Shown in pieces: positions 4,253-27,048 of a stretch of DNA of 40,519 nucleotides. The position numbers and the translations under genes were made by a program. The notes under the pieces are model-generated. The model saw only the letters and a list, made by a program, of their open reading frames with translations, was not told the DNA's origin and did not search any database. Origin of the DNA: Herbidospora galbida (GTDB taxonomy: Bacteria > Actinomycetota > Actinomycetes > Streptosporangiales > Streptosporangiaceae); assembly GCF_005233835.1 (NCBI RefSeq), contig NZ_SZQA01000052.1, positions 1-40,519 of the forward strand, read 5' to 3'. Numbering within the stretch: the stretch's first letter is position 1; the number at the start of each line of letters is the position of its first letter.

Positions 4253-7051
4253 CTACTTCTTCGACGGGGTCACCTGGACGATGACACCGAGGTTCAGCGG
4301 CAGCGGGCTGACGAGCTTCAGCTTGACGCCGAGCTGCTTGCCCTCGTCACCGGGGTTGCCGGAACCGAGCACGAACCCGTTGACGTTCTCGCCGTACAGG
4401 TCGGTGGCCGGGCTGCCGTCGGGGTTGACGATCCGGGCGGTGTAGGCCTGGTTGTCCTTCGACGGCACGACCGCCGAGGCGTCGCGCAGGCGGAAGTAGA
4501 GCCCGTCGGGACGGTTCTCCAGGCCCGGGTACCAGGTCTTGGCGTCGGTGAACTCCTTGACCGGGTTCTGCGCCGGGAAGCTGGTGCAGTACTCGACGAA
4601 CGGCTCGGCCGCCGGCTCCAGGCACTCCTTGAACGGATACGTCTTGCCGAAGCCGAAGGCGGCGTTGGCGGCCTGCGGACGCATCGGGATGTTCTTGAGA
4701 GCGCTGGTGTCCTTCGTCGCGGCGACGCCGGAGCGGCGCAGCGGCTCGAAGTGCGAGTCGACCAGCAGGAGCTGGCCCTTCGACCCCACCGACGGCAGGT
4801 TGAACTGGTTGGCGGCCGGGTTGTTCATGCCGTACGACGCGTCGCGCAGCCACACCAGGAGGCCGGGGGCGTTGTAGGCGACCTTCTCGACCTTCCAGGC
4901 GCCGTCGCGCTGCCAGGTGGTGTCATAGGTGTACTTGAGGCCCTGGTCGAAGCCGTCGTAGTTGCGCCACTCGGCCAGGTAGTACTGCTCGGAGTTGATC
5001 GAGCCGCCGTGGATGTTCCAGCCCGCGCCGGTCGTGTCGGTGAACGTGCCGGTCGTGGCGGTCCAGCCGTTGGCGCCGCCCTCGACGTCGTCGCTCCAGA
5101 CGGTCGCGCCACCGGCGGTGACGGCGAAGTCGTCGGAGAACCAGCCGCGCTCGATGGCGGCCTCGTCGGTGTTGTACGTCAGGCGGATCTGGACGGTGGC
5201 GCCCGCGAACGGCGTCAGGTCGACGTAGTCGTGCCGCCAGCCGTGGGTGTCGCCGGTCAGGCCGTACTTCTTGTTGCCGAAGTCGTGCATGCGGCCGTTC
5301 GGGTCGGCGTAGCCGTCGTCGGTGGTGACGAGCGTGCCGTCCTCGGAGTAGACCTTCTGCTGCGCCCAGGTGGCGCCGCCGTCGGTCGAGACCTCGACGA
5401 AGCCGAAGTCCCACTCCTCCTCGATGGTGTAGTCGTTCCACATCCAGAAGCGGGGGTCGCCGGTCGCCGGGACCTGGACGGTCCGGGTCAGCTTGCTGTC
5501 GGCCCACATCTGGTCGTTGTTCGACCACCACATGTTCGCGCCCGAGTGGGGCGTGGCCATGACGACGTGCTTGGACGGCAGGTTGATGCGCAGGCCGTCC
5601 TCGGTCAGCTTGGGCGTGCGCGAGGTCTGGCCGATGGTGACGAGCTTGGTCTTGTCACCGGGGTTGACGACCTCGGGGTCGACCCAGCCGAGCACCCACT
5701 TGTCCCACAGGCCCATGTGGGTCGGCATGGACTGGAAGATCGGGCCCGAGTGCGAGCCGGTCGACATCAGGTCCCAGAACTCCACCGAGCTGTCGCCGGC
5801 GCCGGAGGCGTCGTACAGGTCGGGCAGGCCCAGGTCGTGGCCGTACTCGTGGGCGAAGACGCCGACGCCGGAGTCCTCCGGCTGCACGATGTAGTTGGCG
5901 ATCTTCTTGTTGGTGCCCGGGATGGTGTAGCCGCCGGGGATGGTCGAGGAGTGCGCCCAGATGGCGTACGTGCCCTCGGCGCCGCCGCCGCCCGACTTGT
6001 CCTCACCGGCGTGCACCAGCACGAGGTGGTCGATGACGCCGTCGGGCTCCAGGACGTTGCCGTCGCCGTCGGCGTCGGCGGTGTCCTCGATGTCGTAGTC
6101 GGCCCACGGGAAGTTCGGCTGCTGCTGGGCGAGCACGTTCACCGCGTCGATGCCGAGCGTGGCCGGGCCCGCCGGGTTGTCGGGGTGGCCGGCCATCTGC
6201 TGCGGGTAGGTGCCGCACTGACCGGCGCCGTACCAGGCCTCGGAGTGGGGGACCTTCAGCCAGCCGATCGCCGCACCGGAGACGGTGTAGGCGCCCTTGG
6301 ACATCTCCTCGTACATCTTCTTCATGGTGAAGCCGGAGATGTCGATGCCCTTCTTCCCGTCACGGGGGTCCTTGAGGTCCTTGCGGACCCGCTCGGTGAT
6401 CCCGGCGTCGGAGTAGAGCATCTTGTTGAAGTGGTCGGTGCTGAAGTTCGGCACCCAGAAGGAGTTGTTGTCCTTGCCGCCGCCCGCGGCCGTGGCCGGG
6501 TCGGGGATGTTGTTGTGCAGCGGGCCGTTCATCTTCGTGCCCGCGGGCTCGGTCACGCAGGTGTTGATGTCGGCGGTCGACACCGGCCGGACGAACCCGG
6601 AGAAGTCGTCGTTGGCGTTCTCGTTGAACTCCACGAGAAGCGTCAGCAGCTTGGCCGTACGCTTCGTGCCCGCCTTCTTGTAGATGAAGTCGAACGGGTT
6701 CTGGCCGGTGCGGATGGCGCGGCGCTCGTTGTTCGCCAGGCCGCGGGCCGCGACGGGGTTGCCGCCCGCGTACTTGTGGTCGATCTCGTCGGCGATCGCC
6801 TGGGTCGCCTGCCGGCTGGCCTTGGCGGCCTCGCTCAGCTTCTCGTCCGAGCGGTCGGAGACGTCCGACTGCGCGCGCGGGGGCGTGTAGTTGATGTAGT
6901 GGTCGCTCAGCGACGGGATCCAGCGGGCCTCCGTGGAGTCCGCCGATGCCGGGACCGTGGCCGCGGTGAGACCCGCGGCCAGCAGCCCGAGCGCGGGCAC
7001 GATGGCGGCCAACCGCCGCGCCCTGCGAGGGGATGCTGCAAAGGCTGACAA
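4253..7051 (-). CDS. Secreted M6-family (immune inhibitor A-like) metalloprotease
   Basis: A 932-aa extracellular zinc protease. Residues 1-38 are a Sec signal peptide (Arg-rich n-region, LAAIVPALGLLAAGLTAATV, cleavage near PASA-DS). A propeptide-like region is followed by the catalytic domain with HEYGHDLGLPD: His401, Glu402, His405 and a third ligand at Asp411 within the HExxHxxGxxD pattern. A downstream WDLMSTGS Met-turn is as expected for peptidase M6. C-terminal beta-rich domains (about 540-930) resemble the binding domains of immune inhibitor A proteins. The start codon is TTG at 7051, supported by GGGAGGA ending 6 nt upstream on this strand. It is a single-gene unit with a hairpin terminator. 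Likely role: degradation of external protein for nutrition or competition. Family call is strong. Confidence 0.95.
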   Translation of the reverse strand: MSAFAASPRRARRLAAIVPALGLLAAGLTAATVPASADSTEARWIPSLSDHYINYTPPRAQSDVSDRSDEKLSEAAKASRQATQAIADEIDHKYAGGNPVAARGLANNERRAIRTGQNPFDFIYKKAGTKRTAKLLTLLVEFNENANDDFSGFVRPVSTADINTCVTEPAGTKMNGPLHNNIPDPATAAGGGKDNNSFWVPNFSTDHFNKMLYSDAGITERVRKDLKDPRDGKKGIDISGFTMKKMYEEMSKGAYTVSGAAIGWLKVPHSEAWYGAGQCGTYPQQMAGHPDNPAGPATLGIDAVNVLAQQQPNFPWADYDIEDTADADGDGNVLEPDGVIDHLVLVHAGEDKSGGGGAEGTYAIWAHSSTIPGGYTIPGTNKKIANYIVQPEDSGVGVFAHEYGHDLGLPDLYDASGAGDSSVEFWDLMSTGSHSGPIFQSMPTHMGLWDKWVLGWVDPEVVNPGDKTKLVTIGQTSRTPKLTEDGLRINLPSKHVVMATPHSGANMWWSNNDQMWADSKLTRTVQVPATGDPRFWMWNDYTIEEEWDFGFVEVSTDGGATWAQQKVYSEDGTLVTTDDGYADPNGRMHDFGNKKYGLTGDTHGWRHDYVDLTPFAGATVQIRLTYNTDEAAIERGWFSDDFAVTAGGATVWSDDVEGGANGWTATTGTFTDTTGAGWNIHGGSINSEQYYLAEWRNYDGFDQGLKYTYDTTWQRDGAWKVEKVAYNAPGLLVWLRDASYGMNNPAANQFNLPSVGSKGQLLLVDSHFEPLRRSGVAATKDTSALKNIPMRPQAANAAFGFGKTYPFKECLEPAAEPFVEYCTSFPAQNPVKEFTDAKTWYPGLENRPDGLYFRLRDASAVVPSKDNQAYTARIVNPDGSPATDLYGENVNGFVLGSGNPGDEGKQLGVKLKLVSPLPLNLGVIVQVTPSKK

Positions 7052-17986: not shown

Positions 17987-18244
17987 ATGCTTGACACTTT
18001 GTGGTGTCTTGAGCGATTCGCCGATGCGACACGGGAGCACATCGACCTTTCGGTGCGCCTGCTCAGCGCCAGCCCGCCGGCGGTACACGTCCGGAACCGT
18101 TTCTCCGACACCCTCGCCGAAACGGTGACCTGCACCGACTGCGGCGCCTTCGTGACCTCGTGGGGCTACCGCCTCGGCACGGTCGAGTCGGTCGAAGACG
18201 CCGCCGCCCGCCTCGCCTACCTGATGGCGGCGCTTCCGGCGTAG
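17987..18244 (+). CDS. 85-aa protein with a CxxC pair, unknown function
   Basis: An 85-aa protein with ATG 17987 and a near-ideal ribosome binding site GGAGGTGAT (17972-17980). The middle has VTCTDCGAFVTSWGYRLG, whose Cys pair could hold a metal with other ligands or with a second subunit. The end, VEDAAARLAYLMAALP, is a probable helix. No family is recognised. It follows the XRE regulator by 68 bp and has the GCAATTGC motif in its upstream region. Its last 28 bp overlap the 3' end of the convergent aminotransferase gene, which is unusual and limits how either tail can evolve. Confidence 0.7.
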   Translation: MLDTLWCLERFADATREHIDLSVRLLSASPPAVHVRNRFSDTLAETVTCTDCGAFVTSWGYRLGTVESVEDAAARLAYLMAALPA

Positions 18245-19602
18245 TCACGCCCCATCGCGTCGAGGTTGGTCAGGAATCTGCGCACGTCGTCGTCGCCGTG
18301 CTGGACCGACAGGGTCCACTGTTCGGTCTTGCCCCAGGGCGGCAGGAAGACCCCGCCGTTGTGCTGGTAAAGCCAGTGCGTGTGTCCCCATTCGTCGGGG
18401 TAGTCCAGAAAGTCGCGATAGTCGCGGAGTTTCTGGTGGAATATTACTGAGCCCTTCGCGCCATATGACTGGACATATCCCGGCATACCCCATCTGCGAA
18501 GAATGGCGGTCGCCTCTTCCGTCATGACCGAGCGCAACCGATCAAAGTGACGATAAGCGTCCGCATTCAGCACGTCCCGCAGCACGACGGCCGCGACCGC
18601 CATGGTGAGCGGATTGCCGTTGAAGGTGCCGACCTGCTCGTACACCCCCTCGGAGATCAGCCTCATCAGGTCGGGCGTGCCGCCGATCGCCCCGCACGGC
18701 AGCCCGCCGCCGAGGGCCTTGGCCAGGCAGATGAGGTCGGGCGTCACGCCCAGTAGTTCGGAGGCCCCGCCCGGTGCGACCGACAGCCCGGTCTTGACCT
18801 CGTCGAAGGCGAGGTAGGCGCCGTGCCGGTGCAGCAGGTCCTTGAGCTGGGCGAGGTAGCCGTCGGGCGGCGGGATGAGCCCGATGTTCATCATGATGGG
18901 TTCGAGGATCATCCCGGCGATCTCGCCGGAGTTCTCGATCAGCGCCCGCTCGACGGCCTCCAGGTCGCCGAAGGGGACGACGACGGTCAGCCGGGCCAGG
19001 TCGGGCGGCACCGAGACGCTGTAGCGCACCGAGCGGGGCCGCAGCGGCGGGCCGGCCTCCTCGATGGACGGATAGACGCTGACCTGCACGGAGTCGTGGT
19101 GGCCGTGGTAGCTGCCCTCGACCTTGATGATCTTCATGCGCCCGGTGGCGGCCCGCATGAGGTGGACGGCGTCCATCGTGGCCTCGGTGCCGGAGTTGCC
19201 GAACCGCCACATGGGCAGCCCGAACCGCCCGGCCAGCAGCCGGGCCACGACGACGGCGTCCCGGGTCGGCTGGGCGAAGTGCGTGCCCTTCCTGACCCGT
19301 TCGTCGATGGTCTCGACGACGGCCGGGTGGGCGTGCCCGACGAGGTTGACCCCGAATCCGCCGTGCAGGTCGACGTAGGAGGTGCCGTCGAGGTCGACGA
19401 CCCGGGAGCCCTGGCCGTGCGAGATCCACACGGCGCCGGGGGGTGCGTCCTGCCAATTGGAGGCCACTCCTCCGGGCAAGACATCGGAGCATTCGGTGCG
19501 CACTCGCCGCGATTCGACGGTCCGGGCGAGGAACGCGCCTTCTTGAAGGGCGATCAGGTCGTCCAGTACGCGAGCCGTTGTCCGCTCGCTGACGACGGTC
19601 AT
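18217..19602 (-). CDS. Class III PLP-dependent aminotransferase (GSA aminomutase-like)
   Basis: A 461-aa PLP enzyme of the class III aminotransferase family. Motifs: DGTSYVDLHGGFGVNLVGHAHP, FGNSGTEATMDAVHLMRAATGR (phosphate-binding GTEA), EGSYHGHHDS, FDEVKTGL and LAKALGGGLP with the PLP lysine at 295. It resembles glutamate-1-semialdehyde aminomutase in layout, but the context is catabolic, not haem synthesis, so I read it as an amine or amino-acid aminotransferase. ATG 19602 is preceded by AAAGGA and lies 2 bp after the Rieske stop. It is the last gene of the leftward FAD/50-aa/Rieske operon. The longer open frame to 20136 runs antisense-free through the Rieske gene and is not used. Substrate unknown. 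Confidence 0.9.
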   Translation of the reverse strand: MTVVSERTTARVLDDLIALQEGAFLARTVESRRVRTECSDVLPGGVASNWQDAPPGAVWISHGQGSRVVDLDGTSYVDLHGGFGVNLVGHAHPAVVETIDERVRKGTHFAQPTRDAVVVARLLAGRFGLPMWRFGNSGTEATMDAVHLMRAATGRMKIIKVEGSYHGHHDSVQVSVYPSIEEAGPPLRPRSVRYSVSVPPDLARLTVVVPFGDLEAVERALIENSGEIAGMILEPIMMNIGLIPPPDGYLAQLKDLLHRHGAYLAFDEVKTGLSVAPGGASELLGVTPDLICLAKALGGGLPCGAIGGTPDLMRLISEGVYEQVGTFNGNPLTMAVAAVVLRDVLNADAYRHFDRLRSVMTEEATAILRRWGMPGYVQSYGAKGSVIFHQKLRDYRDFLDYPDEWGHTHWLYQHNGGVFLPPWGKTEQWTLSVQHGDDDVRRFLTNLDAMGRDYAGSAAIR

Positions 19603-19604
19603 CG

Positions 19605-20729
19605 TTAGATCCTTTCGGGCAGGGCCGGCGCGCGGCCCGTGAGATAAGCGGTCGCCACGGTGGCGATCCACTGGAAGGTGACGTCCTCGTCGGCGGAGAA
19701 CGGGCCCGGCCGGTAGCCGCGCGAGCTCACTCCCCGCTGCACCCCTTCGCAGGCCTGCCAGTCCTGCCGGTTGGTGAGATCCCAGAAGTCGACGGCGTAG
19801 CCGACGTCGGTGGTCCCCTTGGGGAACAGCCACTGGCAGGTGACCTTCGTCCGGGTGGCGGTGAGCGGTTCGAGGACGTGCGTCATGACGTAGTCGGGAT
19901 GCAGGCTGAGCAGCAGGTTCGGGAACAGGTGCAGGTATTCGACGATCCGCAGCCGCTCGCCGGTGATGCCCGGGAGCGGCCCGGCCGCCGACGCGCCGTC
20001 GAACGACATCGTCTCGGCGCCGTCGACGAGGTCCATGCGGCCGCCCGCCCACAGGCCGGTCGGGACGTAGTTGTCGCCGCTGTCCGGGGGCGACACCGCG
20101 CAGAGCTCCGGGTGGATCGCCGGGCAGTGGTAGCACTCGTGGTAGTTCTCGACGGCGAGTTTCCAGTTGGCGTCGAGCTCGTATTCGTGCGACGCGGCCA
20201 CGTCGAGCTCGTTCAGCGTGTACGGCGCCACGATCTCCTCAAGGCCGTCGAGGTAGTCGTGGATGGGCGGGGCCTGGCCGTCGGCGTTGACGAACACGAA
20301 CCCGTGCCACTCGGTGATCGGGACCTCGACCAGGCCGAGCTTGGGCGCGGGCTCTCCGGGGATGCGGTGCAGGTCGCCCTTCAGGGTGTAGACCCAGTTG
20401 TGGTACGGGCAGGCGATGAACCGGCCCGTCGCGCTCGAACCGCACGGGAGCAGTTCGTGGGCCCGGTGGCGGCAGACGTTGTAGAAGCCCCGGGGGGTGG
20501 CGTCGTCGTCGCGGACCAGCAGCACCGAGTCGTCGCCGACGGCGACGGCCTTCCGGCCCCGGTTCGGGATGTCCGACGAGCGTCCCGCGCAGACCCACCC
20601 ACCGGCGAAGACGACCTTGCGCTCCCAGTCGAGGACGTCGTCGGCGATGTAGGCGGCCTGCGGGAGCATCTGCCCCGGGGCCTTGAGACACTCACGGACC
20701 TCGTCGAGGTCGAGCGGGGCGGAGTTCAT
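19605..20729 (-). CDS. Rieske non-haem iron oxygenase alpha subunit
   Basis: A 374-aa oxygenase component of the ring-hydroxylating/choline-monooxygenase type. The Rieske [2Fe-2S] ligands are Cys86-x-His88 and Cys107-x-x-His110. The mononuclear iron site is in ENYHECYHCPAIHP. The NYHECYHC form is the one seen in choline, glycine-betaine, carnitine and stachydrine mono-oxygenases, which attack quaternary amines, so oxidation of an N-methylated or quaternary amine is a fair inference. An electron-transfer reductase gene is not in the window. ATG 20729 overlaps the stop of the 50-aa gene (ATGA). The aminotransferase follows by 2 bp. The polyamine-type transporter on the other side of the operon supports an amine substrate. 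Confidence 0.92.
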   Translation of the reverse strand: MNSAPLDLDEVRECLKAPGQMLPQAAYIADDVLDWERKVVFAGGWVCAGRSSDIPNRGRKAVAVGDDSVLLVRDDDATPRGFYNVCRHRAHELLPCGSSATGRFIACPYHNWVYTLKGDLHRIPGEPAPKLGLVEVPITEWHGFVFVNADGQAPPIHDYLDGLEEIVAPYTLNELDVAASHEYELDANWKLAVENYHECYHCPAIHPELCAVSPPDSGDNYVPTGLWAGGRMDLVDGAETMSFDGASAAGPLPGITGERLRIVEYLHLFPNLLLSLHPDYVMTHVLEPLTATRTKVTCQWLFPKGTTDVGYAVDFWDLTNRQDWQACEGVQRGVSSRGYRPGPFSADEDVTFQWIATVATAYLTGRAPALPERI

Positions 20730-20878
20730 CGCTTGCACCACCCCGTGGGGGCCTTGCCGGAGCCGCACCAGTCCGACGGCTTGACGGCACCGGCCTGGCT
20801 GGGCGGCCAGACGAGGCCACCTTTTTTGTCAGGTTGGGCCAAGGCGCTCAACAACGCCTTCCCTAGAGCCTGGATCAT
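20726..20878 (-). CDS. 50-aa Trp/Cys-containing protein between FAD and Rieske genes
   Basis: A small gene that is easy to miss. The frame starts ATG 20878 and stops at 20726, giving MIQALGKALLSALAQ as N terminus, then a stretch with GLVWPP, and SDWCGSGK and TGWCKR at the end. Both ends show ATGA 4-bp overlaps, with the FAD gene stop (20875-20878) and with the Rieske start (20726-20729), which is strong evidence for translation in the operon. AGAGGTGGTGG precedes the start. The N terminus could be a short amphipathic helix; the two WC pairs could bind metal or form a disulfide. It might be an accessory or electron-transfer-docking peptide for the Rieske enzyme, but that is speculation. No family recognised. 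Codon use includes CTA, TTG and AAA AAA, less biased than neighbours. Confidence 0.75.
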   Translation of the reverse strand: MIQALGKALLSALAQPDKKGGLVWPPSQAGAVKPSDWCGSGKAPTGWCKR

Positions 20879-22473
20879 CGGTTCCACCACCTCTTGCGGT
20901 CGTTCAGGATTCGGCGGGTGGCCAGGTAGCCGGCGATGCCCGTCACCCCTCCTCCGCCGTGGGTGGCGGAGGAACACTGGTAAAGGCCCTTCACCGGGGT
21001 GGTGAAGTCGGCGTAGCCGGGGGCGGGCCTCAGGTGGAAGAGCTGGTCGGGGGAGAGCTCGCCGTGGAAGATGTTGCCGCCGAGCAGGCCGTACTCGTGT
21101 TCCATCTCGTGGGGGCCGATGACCTGGCGGTGGATGACCGAGGCCTTGAAGCCGGGGGCCAACTGGTCGTAGCCGTCGATGACGCGGTCGGCGTAGGCGT
21201 CGAGTTCCTCGGTGCGGGGCTCCTCGTTCCAGGTGTGCGGGACCCACTGGGTGAACATCGACATGATGTGGGTGCCCTCGGGGCAGAGCGTGCGGTCGAC
21301 CGTCGAGGGGATGACCGAGTCGGAGAACGGCCTGCGCGCGGCGACGCCCGACCTCGCGTCCTGGAAGGCCTGTTCGACGTACTCGATGGAGTGGCAGAGC
21401 TCGACCGAGCCGGTCAGGTCGGCTTCGGGGCTGGACGGGAAGGTCGGGAGCTCCGAGAGGGCCAGGTTGATCTTCACGACGCCCGAGCGGGAGCGCCAGC
21501 GTTCGATGTCGCGCGCGAAGTCGTCGGGCAGGTGGTCGCGGCCGACGTGCGTGAGGAAGGTGGTTTTGGGGTGGGTGGCGGCGACGACGGTGGAGGCGGT
21601 GAACTCGCGGCCGTCTTCGAGGGCGACCCCCACCACCCTGCCCCCTTTTATGAGGATTTTTCGGACAGGGGCCTCGGTGATGACCGTCGCGCCGAACGCC
21701 TCGGCCGACCGGCGGATCGCGTCGCTGACCGCGCCCATGCCCCCGATCGGGTAGCCCCACGACCCCATCCGGCCGTCGCCGACGTCGCCGATCGTGTGGT
21801 GCATCATCACGTAGGCGGTGCCCGGCTCGGCCGGCCCGGCCCAGGTTCCGATGACGCCGTTGATCGACATCACGCCCTTGACCTCGGGCGACTCGAACCA
21901 CTCGTTCAGCAGGTCTTCGACGGACATGGTGAACAGGCGGACCGCGTCGGCGGTGCCCCGCGTCCGCAGGCCGCGCAGCCCCCAGGCCAGTCGCAGCTGG
22001 TCGATCAGATCCTTCGGCCGCAGCGAGCCGACGTTGGGCGGGGTGCGCATGAGCAGTGGGGACAGGACGTCGCCGATCCCCTGGAGCCAGGCCTCGTAGC
22101 GGGGCATCGCCTCGGCGTCCTTCGCGGAGAACGCGGCGAGCTGGGCGTGGTCACGGGCCGGGTCGCCCGTCTCGGTCAGCAGGGAACGGCCGTCGGGGAA
22201 GGGGACGAAGCTGGGACCCATCGGGATCACGTCGTAGCCGTGGTCTTTGAGCCGCAGGTCACGCAGGATCGTGGGGGGCATCAGGCTCATGACGTACGAG
22301 AGAGCGGTGACCTTGAACTCGGGGCCCCACGGGGTTTCGGTCGTGGCGGCGCCGCCGGTGACCGGGCGGGCTTCGGCGACGAGGGTGGAGAGTCCGGCTC
22401 GGGCGAGATAGGCCGCGGCGACGAGCCCGTTGTGCCCGCCCCCGACGATGATCGCGTCGTATGCGTGTTTCAC
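20875..22473 (-). CDS. FAD-dependent oxidoreductase (phytoene desaturase/amine oxidase-like)
   Basis: A 532-aa flavoprotein with a dinucleotide-binding fold at the N terminus ([29 protein letters not shown]). It has WGYPIGGMGAVSDAIRRSAEAFGA, typical of the NAD(P)/FAD oxidoreductases related to carotenoid desaturases, and a C-terminal FAD motif around SSATHGGGGVTGIAGYLATR. GTG 22473 follows AAGGGG on this strand. It is the first gene of the operon with the 50-aa protein, Rieske oxygenase and aminotransferase, and it diverges from the ABC transporter genes. No carotenoid genes are near, so desaturation or oxidation of an amine-containing substrate is more likely. A paralogue is at 34230-35717. 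Confidence 0.9.
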   Translation of the reverse strand: MKHAYDAIIVGGGHNGLVAAAYLARAGLSTLVAEARPVTGGAATTETPWGPEFKVTALSYVMSLMPPTILRDLRLKDHGYDVIPMGPSFVPFPDGRSLLTETGDPARDHAQLAAFSAKDAEAMPRYEAWLQGIGDVLSPLLMRTPPNVGSLRPKDLIDQLRLAWGLRGLRTRGTADAVRLFTMSVEDLLNEWFESPEVKGVMSINGVIGTWAGPAEPGTAYVMMHHTIGDVGDGRMGSWGYPIGGMGAVSDAIRRSAEAFGATVITEAPVRKILIKGGRVVGVALEDGREFTASTVVAATHPKTTFLTHVGRDHLPDDFARDIERWRSRSGVVKINLALSELPTFPSSPEADLTGSVELCHSIEYVEQAFQDARSGVAARRPFSDSVIPSTVDRTLCPEGTHIMSMFTQWVPHTWNEEPRTEELDAYADRVIDGYDQLAPGFKASVIHRQVIGPHEMEHEYGLLGGNIFHGELSPDQLFHLRPAPGYADFTTPVKGLYQCSSATHGGGGVTGIAGYLATRRILNDRKRWWNR

Positions 22474-26205: not shown

Positions 26206-27048
26206 TCACTTGCCGCGTTCGGCGACGTATGCCGACAGGGCGGAGAATGCCTCGTCTCCCCGCCCGTCGGCCGTCGCCCGCTCGGCGTAGTCGCGGGCCG
26301 CCCGCAGGGCCCCGGTCGCCAGGCCCGCCCGCTCGGAGGCCGCGATCACGTGGGAGATCTGTGCGTGGGTCGACCGGATCGACGAGGCCGCGCCGGAGTG
26401 TTCGCCCGATTCGAGGTTGGCCCCGCACTCTTCGATGAGCGTCGGCAGGATCTCACCGAGTCCCTTGAGCATCGGCGTCAGCTCGCCCGGCTCGATGCCT
26501 TCGGCGGAGGCGAGCGCGTAGGAGTGGACGACCCCCGCCAGCGCGTTCCAGAACACGTCGAGCACCGCCACGTCGAAGGCGGCCGCGCGCCCGGGGTCCT
26601 CCCCCAGGTAGATCGGGTTGGCCGGCACCGACAGCTCGGTCTCCCATCGGGAGAACACCGGCGACGGCCCGCTGTAGAAGATCGTGCCGCTGGGCGTGCC
26701 GATCGCCTCGGCCGGGCAGGCGACGGCCCCTTCGAGGTAGGTGATGTCGTGGTCGGCCGCCCAGGCGGCCATCTCCCGGGCGCGGTGGGGGGTGTCGGCC
26801 GTCAGGTTGACGAGCGTCCTGCCGCGCAACGCCTGGGCGTCGACGATCGCCTCGACCGCGCCGTAGTCGAGCACGGACACGATGGTCAGCGCGCCGACGG
26901 CCTCGGCGACCGTCTTCGCCTCGACCGCCCCGTCGGGGGCCTTGCCGGGGGTCCGGTTCCAGACCGTCGTCGGATTGCCGTTCGCGATGAAGGCTCGGGC
27001 CAGCGCTCGTCCCATCGGCCCGAGCCCGAGAATCGTGACTGGAGTCAT
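26206..27048 (-). CDS. NAD(P)-dependent imine-reductase-like dehydrogenase
   Basis: A 280-aa enzyme of the 6-phosphogluconate/beta-hydroxyacid dehydrogenase superfamily, closest in look to imine reductases: VTILGLGPMGRALARAFIANG (Rossmann), TVWNRTPGKA (favouring NADPH), VNLTADTPHRAREMAAWA, DITYLEGAVACP, and an interdomain helix leading into an all-helical dimerisation domain (FDVAVLDVFWNALAGVVHSYALA). Imine reductases turn cyclic imines into amines. It might therefore act on an imine arising from the neighbouring amine oxidation, which is inference. ATG 27048 follows TAGGGT by exactly 6 nt, suggesting a leaderless message. It converges on permease 2. Confidence 0.85.
   Translation of the reverse strand: MTPVTILGLGPMGRALARAFIANGNPTTVWNRTPGKAPDGAVEAKTVAEAVGALTIVSVLDYGAVEAIVDAQALRGRTLVNLTADTPHRAREMAAWAADHDITYLEGAVACPAEAIGTPSGTIFYSGPSPVFSRWETELSVPANPIYLGEDPGRAAAFDVAVLDVFWNALAGVVHSYALASAEGIEPGELTPMLKGLGEILPTLIEECGANLESGEHSGAASSIRSTHAQISHVIAASERAGLATGALRAARDYAERATADGRGDEAFSALSAYVAERGK

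Follow-up and report, generated by a model that had tools for sequence, protein, structure and literature searches.

A putative microprotein gene locked by overlaps between FAD oxidoreductase and Rieske oxygenase genes in Herbidospora

What keeps a reading frame of 50 codons open between two enzyme genes of one operon, and is its peptide of any use to the cell? The question is raised by the junction of a flavin adenine dinucleotide (FAD) oxidoreductase gene and a Rieske oxygenase gene in the soil actinomycete Herbidospora galbida, on contig NZ_SZQA01000052.1, positions 1 to 40,519 of which form the window analysed here. The minus strand at 20878..20726 translates to MIQALGKALLSALAQPDKKGGLVWPPSQAGAVKPSDWCGSGKAPTGWCKR, a peptide of 50 aa followed by a stop codon. 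The first-pass annotation of this DNA described, without giving the strand, a frame running from the ATGA that ends the FAD gene to the ATGA that starts the Rieske gene, and this is correct: the ATGA at 20878-20875 combines the microprotein start with the FAD stop, and that at 20729-20726 the microprotein stop with the Rieske start. The stop/start overlap is present with both neighbours, as in genes coupled by termination and reinitiation. Our preferred explanation, to which we assign a probability of about 0.46, is that this is a real microprotein gene, selected for its peptide and born within the Herbidospora lineage at a FAD/Rieske junction of four bases; within the collections searched it appears to be restricted to this lineage.

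Chance, conservation and selection

A double overlap in a single genome could be due to chance in about one spacer in six. In 2000 dinucleotide shuffles of the galbida spacer the interior stayed open in 49.5%, which, multiplied by 1/3 for the phase, gives a probability of ~0.165; the corresponding values across six spacers range from ~0.13 to 0.23 per spacer. The earlier argument that a chance double overlap is unlikely was therefore overstated and is insufficient alone, and the case beyond chance rests on conservation as judged by sequence comparison across species. These frequencies, together with the high GC content that favours open frames, speak for a non-coding spacer open by chance, but this is nevertheless the least probable of the explanations considered here, since it disagrees with the lengths of the frames, which differ by multiples of three among Herbidospora species, and with an omega (the ratio of nonsynonymous to synonymous rates) of 0.29, a departure from neutrality that none of 200 neutral simulations equalled.

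The comparison within the genus covers seven genomes, four of which have long sequences: a protein search revealed, in addition to galbida, homologues of 50, 50 and 46 aa at the same junction in three further species, among them H. sakaeratensis, whose predicted microprotein would yield peptides such as AGVVWPPSQADAVKPADWCGSGQAPSGWCER. Two genomes have short in-frame forms, one of 28 codons in H. yilanensis and a 12-codon frame in H. cretacea, whose kinship to the microprotein is uncertain, if it is related at all; in H. solisilvae FAD and Rieske adjoin and there is no microprotein frame. At six of the seven junctions the extra sequence is bridged by overlapping frames, and the added frames retain the stop/start overlaps except for one 19-nt gap in H. 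sakaeratensis. A tree of the FAD and Rieske sequences places H. cretacea and H. mongoliensis closest to the outgroup and groups H. solisilvae with H. yilanensis (support 91), which fits a single gain followed by shortening and loss; the tree of FAD only gives a different position for H. solisilvae.

The insert that separates the FAD stop from the microprotein gene in H. sakaeratensis (5636-5785 of locus L082) consists in part of a strongly foldable dispersed repeat. With the insert as query, all seven Herbidospora genomes gave 40–43 matches each, with 40 candidates scored in every genome, and among the matches listed most fall in query positions 37-186. An Rfam search of the insert identified no RNA family.

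For the long sequences, omega was estimated as 0.29 under the F3x4 model (likelihood ratio, LR, 20.0; p 8e-6) and as 0.36 under 1x4 frequencies (LR 14.2, p 2e-4), while the highest LR in the 200 simulations carried out at omega = 1 was 6.9. Taken separately, codons 1-22 and codons 23-45 yielded values of 0.23–0.35, depending on the frequency model (p 0.0009–0.02). Four of five control frames gave 1.1–1.7, the fifth, an antisense frame with common third positions, 0.27. The proportion of synonymous differences (pS) is higher in the microprotein open reading frame (ORF) than in the flanks in five of six species pairs (0.29–0.59 vs 0.14–0.30). The microprotein thus appears to be under purifying selection, yet weakly constrained and fast-evolving. 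It also agrees with the definition of ismORF-type genes, i.e. 15–70 codons, purifying selection and synteny in related species. The earlier proposal that the frame is probably translated is supported by this comparison, in which omega of 0.29–0.36 (and not near one), the simulations, the length differences in multiples of three and the Shine-Dalgarno (SD)-like starts point in the same direction.

A number of observations weigh against a selected peptide. The codon analysis involved only four long sequences, one fixed topology and one codon model, and the pairwise ORF omega ranges from 0.13 to 1.1, the pair at 1.1 indicating weak constraint. The value of 0.27 for the antisense frame mirrors that of the sense frame, with which it shares wobble positions, but this frame has a stop in H. 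sakaeratensis. The flanking enzymes exhibit omega of 0.05–0.10, well under the ORF value, and are 92–96% identical, as opposed to 60–72% for the ORF; one of the seven species is devoid of the frame and two possess short forms only. The predicted SD duplex at the H. mongoliensis microprotein start (energy -5.6) lies inside the background, the structure model of the microprotein is uninformative (mean predicted local distance difference test score 54), and the N-terminal amphipathic signal is weak (shuffle p 0.03–0.11).

A 375-aa open frame on the plus strand (19878-21005) runs antisense to the Rieske gene, the microprotein ORF and the FAD 3' end; it has third positions in common with the microprotein frame and a stop in H. 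sakaeratensis, and looks like an artefact of GC-rich DNA.

The junction outside the genus

Among 34 FAD loci compared, 28 come from outside Herbidospora; in the available sequence (downstream up to ~4 kb) two of these lack the FAD stop, ten lack a Rieske motif and 16 possess it. None of the 16 named loci with Rieske after FAD encodes a homologue of the microprotein, and in 15 of them the junction is direct, the Rieske frame opening at an ATGA or GTGA that also contains the FAD stop; the direct junction is therefore likely to be the ancestral state. The remaining locus, L096, from an Actinomycetota metagenome-assembled genome (MAG; FAD 68% identical), carries a 12-codon frame, MSRAVSKRKAHA, which begins on the ATGA of the FAD stop, ends on another ATGA, the one that opens the Rieske gene, and by eye resembles none of the Herbidospora peptides. 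The absence of a conserved frame from homologous operons with adjoining FAD and Rieske genes, which had been named as evidence that would speak against the gene, is thus observed outside the genus and in H. solisilvae. A Rieske motif was absent from up to 1.4 kb downstream in further FAD loci, 29 from a phylum-wide search (27 readable) and 16 from a family search (L035-L050), so the FAD/Rieske junction is, in the sequences surveyed, known only from the clade of the 34 loci.

When 345 genomes of the order were searched with a profile, 31 gave matches at E <= 0.01; four of these are Herbidospora (E <= 1.6e-25), and among the remaining 27 the lowest E-value is 4.8e-4. Matches in ten of these 27 were inspected and judged to be noise, exhibiting internal stops or only short similarity in which start, end and neighbours did not correspond. 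One viral contig was matched through a stretch resembling WCGSG, which lies antisense to an ORF of 207 aa and was judged to be due to chance. Searches with the peptide retrieved no match from plasmids and phages (tblastn) and no relative from a scan of genome contigs. Eight local alignments of the interior against FAD 3' and Rieske 5' sequence did not make a convincing case for a copy of either (p 0.02–0.99 vs shuffles), and apart from the junction the seven Herbidospora genomes contain only short DNA matches to it (E >= 0.006). In the open-licence PMC literature we found no paper with both Herbidospora and Rieske, and no description of this gene among the papers listed on translational coupling, microproteins, Rieske accessory proteins and gene birth.

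A peptide, a bridge or both

The first-pass annotation suggested that the peptide may be a new accessory subunit of a Rieske oxygenase. The gene does adjoin and overlap the Rieske gene, and two WC pairs occur in all four long forms. The first of these (WCGSG) is conserved at the protein level, and the second (GWCKR) is the product of the Rieske ribosome-binding region. However, the peptide does not travel with the oxygenase gene: it is missing from all 16 outside loci and from H. solisilvae, and is represented by 28 codons in H. yilanensis and, provided that the frame is related, by 12 in H. cretacea. No Pfam, NCBIfam or PHROG match was found for any of the four homologues (Pfam and NCBIfam up to E 10), in agreement with the earlier statement that no family is recognised; in particular, none matched beta-subunit or ferredoxin families of Pfam and NCBIfam, and a PDB search yielded nothing meaningful (best E 3.4). 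The earlier proposal is therefore not supported: because related operons lack the peptide, a usual accessory subunit is unlikely, and because it appears to be a recent addition seen only in Herbidospora, a role as a core component of the enzyme is unlikely as well.

A small ORF beside oxidative enzymes, with a weakly amphipathic N-terminus and a W/C-rich C-terminus, could also encode a precursor peptide destined for modification or secretion, on whose Trp/Cys tail the FAD and Rieske enzymes would act. We regard this as very improbable, even more so than an accessory subunit. In ribosomally synthesised and post-translationally modified peptide systems the modifying enzymes would be expected only alongside the peptide, but here other genera possess these Pot transporter, FAD, Rieske and aminotransferase genes and lack the peptide, which suggests that the enzymes have another substrate; the lack of a family match also argues against a precursor.

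A more serious competitor is the possibility that the frame is kept as a translational relay, for termination-reinitiation from FAD to Rieske, with the peptide as a by-product. Reinitiation by post-termination ribosomes requires overlaps or very short gaps, and ~20 nt nearly abolishes coupling, according to PMC10666635. Any sequence gained at the FAD/Rieske junction would cut off the Rieske gene unless bridged by overlapping frames. On the other hand, open frames are likely in GC-rich DNA, the probability of being open, before the factor of 1/3 for phase, being 0.15 for an 88-codon frame, 0.56 for a 106-codon frame and 1.0 for L096. Moreover, a relay alone predicts an interior omega near 1, in disagreement with the estimates for codons 1-45. 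We rank the pure relay second, as possible but less probable than a selected microprotein, because it accounts for the frames, even the unrelated one of L096, but fails to explain why omega is well below 1. Both may hold together.

According to the preferred explanation, a selected microprotein, ribosomes ending the FAD gene would reinitiate on the first ATGA, aided by GAGGTGG, and synthesise the protein of 46–50 aa; termination at the second ATGA would be followed by another reinitiation, this time on Rieske. The SD-like stretch for the microprotein start, GAGGTGGTGG (20879..20895, minus strand), lies within the FAD 3' end (duplex energy -9.2), and that for the Rieske start, GGGTGGTG (20730..20746, minus strand; -7.7), doubles as the GWCKR coding sequence and has 13 of 17 nt in common with the FAD 3' end; for 74 internal ATGs the mean is -3.8 (sd 3.1), with 30% at -6 or lower. 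Since the peptide sequence appears to be under selection in four species, it probably has a role beyond bridging, most likely that of a small modulator acting near its site of synthesis on the FAD or Rieske enzyme, the choice of partner being suggested by gene position. It would act through the N-terminal amphipathic segment and the Trp/Cys-rich tail, and the overlap pattern suggests that the frame serves in addition to sustain the flow of ribosomes into Rieske.

Similar features are described for other systems. The ismORFs of Enterobacteriaceae (PMC11188072) are likewise 15–70 codons long, under purifying selection, lineage-restricted and of high turnover, but they occupy free intergenic regions, whereas the Herbidospora gene is ATGA-locked at both ends in a GC-rich actinomycete. 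Compared to ATGA/TGATG termination-reinitiation gene pairs (PMC6728339, PMC10666635), Herbidospora has two overlaps in succession, one on either side of a microprotein gene absent from related operons. The regulatory minigene mg2 of axe-txe (PMC8708949) is likewise a tiny cis ORF, for which both the reading frame and the spacing to the following gene are important, but it comprises two codons, in contrast to 46–50 codons with omega about 0.3. At the Herbidospora junction the addition of a small protein gene to an operon that already existed can be followed clearly, the direct junction and the short, long and lost forms all being visible in seven related genomes. Are overlap junctions birthplaces of microprotein genes that are translated from the outset? 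And is selection for the peptide or for ribosome flow? Both questions now become testable.

Neighbouring genes

The upstream FAD oxidoreductase (20875..22473, minus strand; its TGA lies inside the first ATGA) is of the CrtO/phytoene desaturase type (Pfam Amino_oxidase/DAO), and the Rieske oxygenase alpha subunit (19605..20729, minus strand; its ATG lies inside the second ATGA) resembles the glycine betaine monooxygenase GbcA (Pfam Rieske and Ring_hydroxyl_A). The NCBIfam scores are far under the curated cut-offs (197.6 of 670 for GbcA, 251.1 of 1000 for CrtO) and therefore no substrate can be assigned to the operon. Downstream, with its ATG 2 nt past the Rieske TAA, lies a GSAM/GntE-like class-III aminotransferase gene (18217..19602, minus strand; Pfam Aminotran_3, NCBIfam profiles below cut-off), whose translation and junction were also examined. 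On the other side of these three genes lie, in divergent orientation, genes of a PotD/PotB/PotC-type transporter identified by profile matches. The order transporter, FAD, Rieske, aminotransferase recurs in Herbidospora, Acrocarpospora, Sphaerisporangium, Virgisporangium and one Micromonosporaceae MAG; among the genera with this layout, an XRE regulator was detected nearby only in the first three. An imine-reductase-like (RedAm) gene (26206-27048, minus strand) separates potC from an acyl-CoA dehydrogenase gene and has a match in just two of three compared 16-kb Herbidospora loci, so the region may acquire genes at several junctions.
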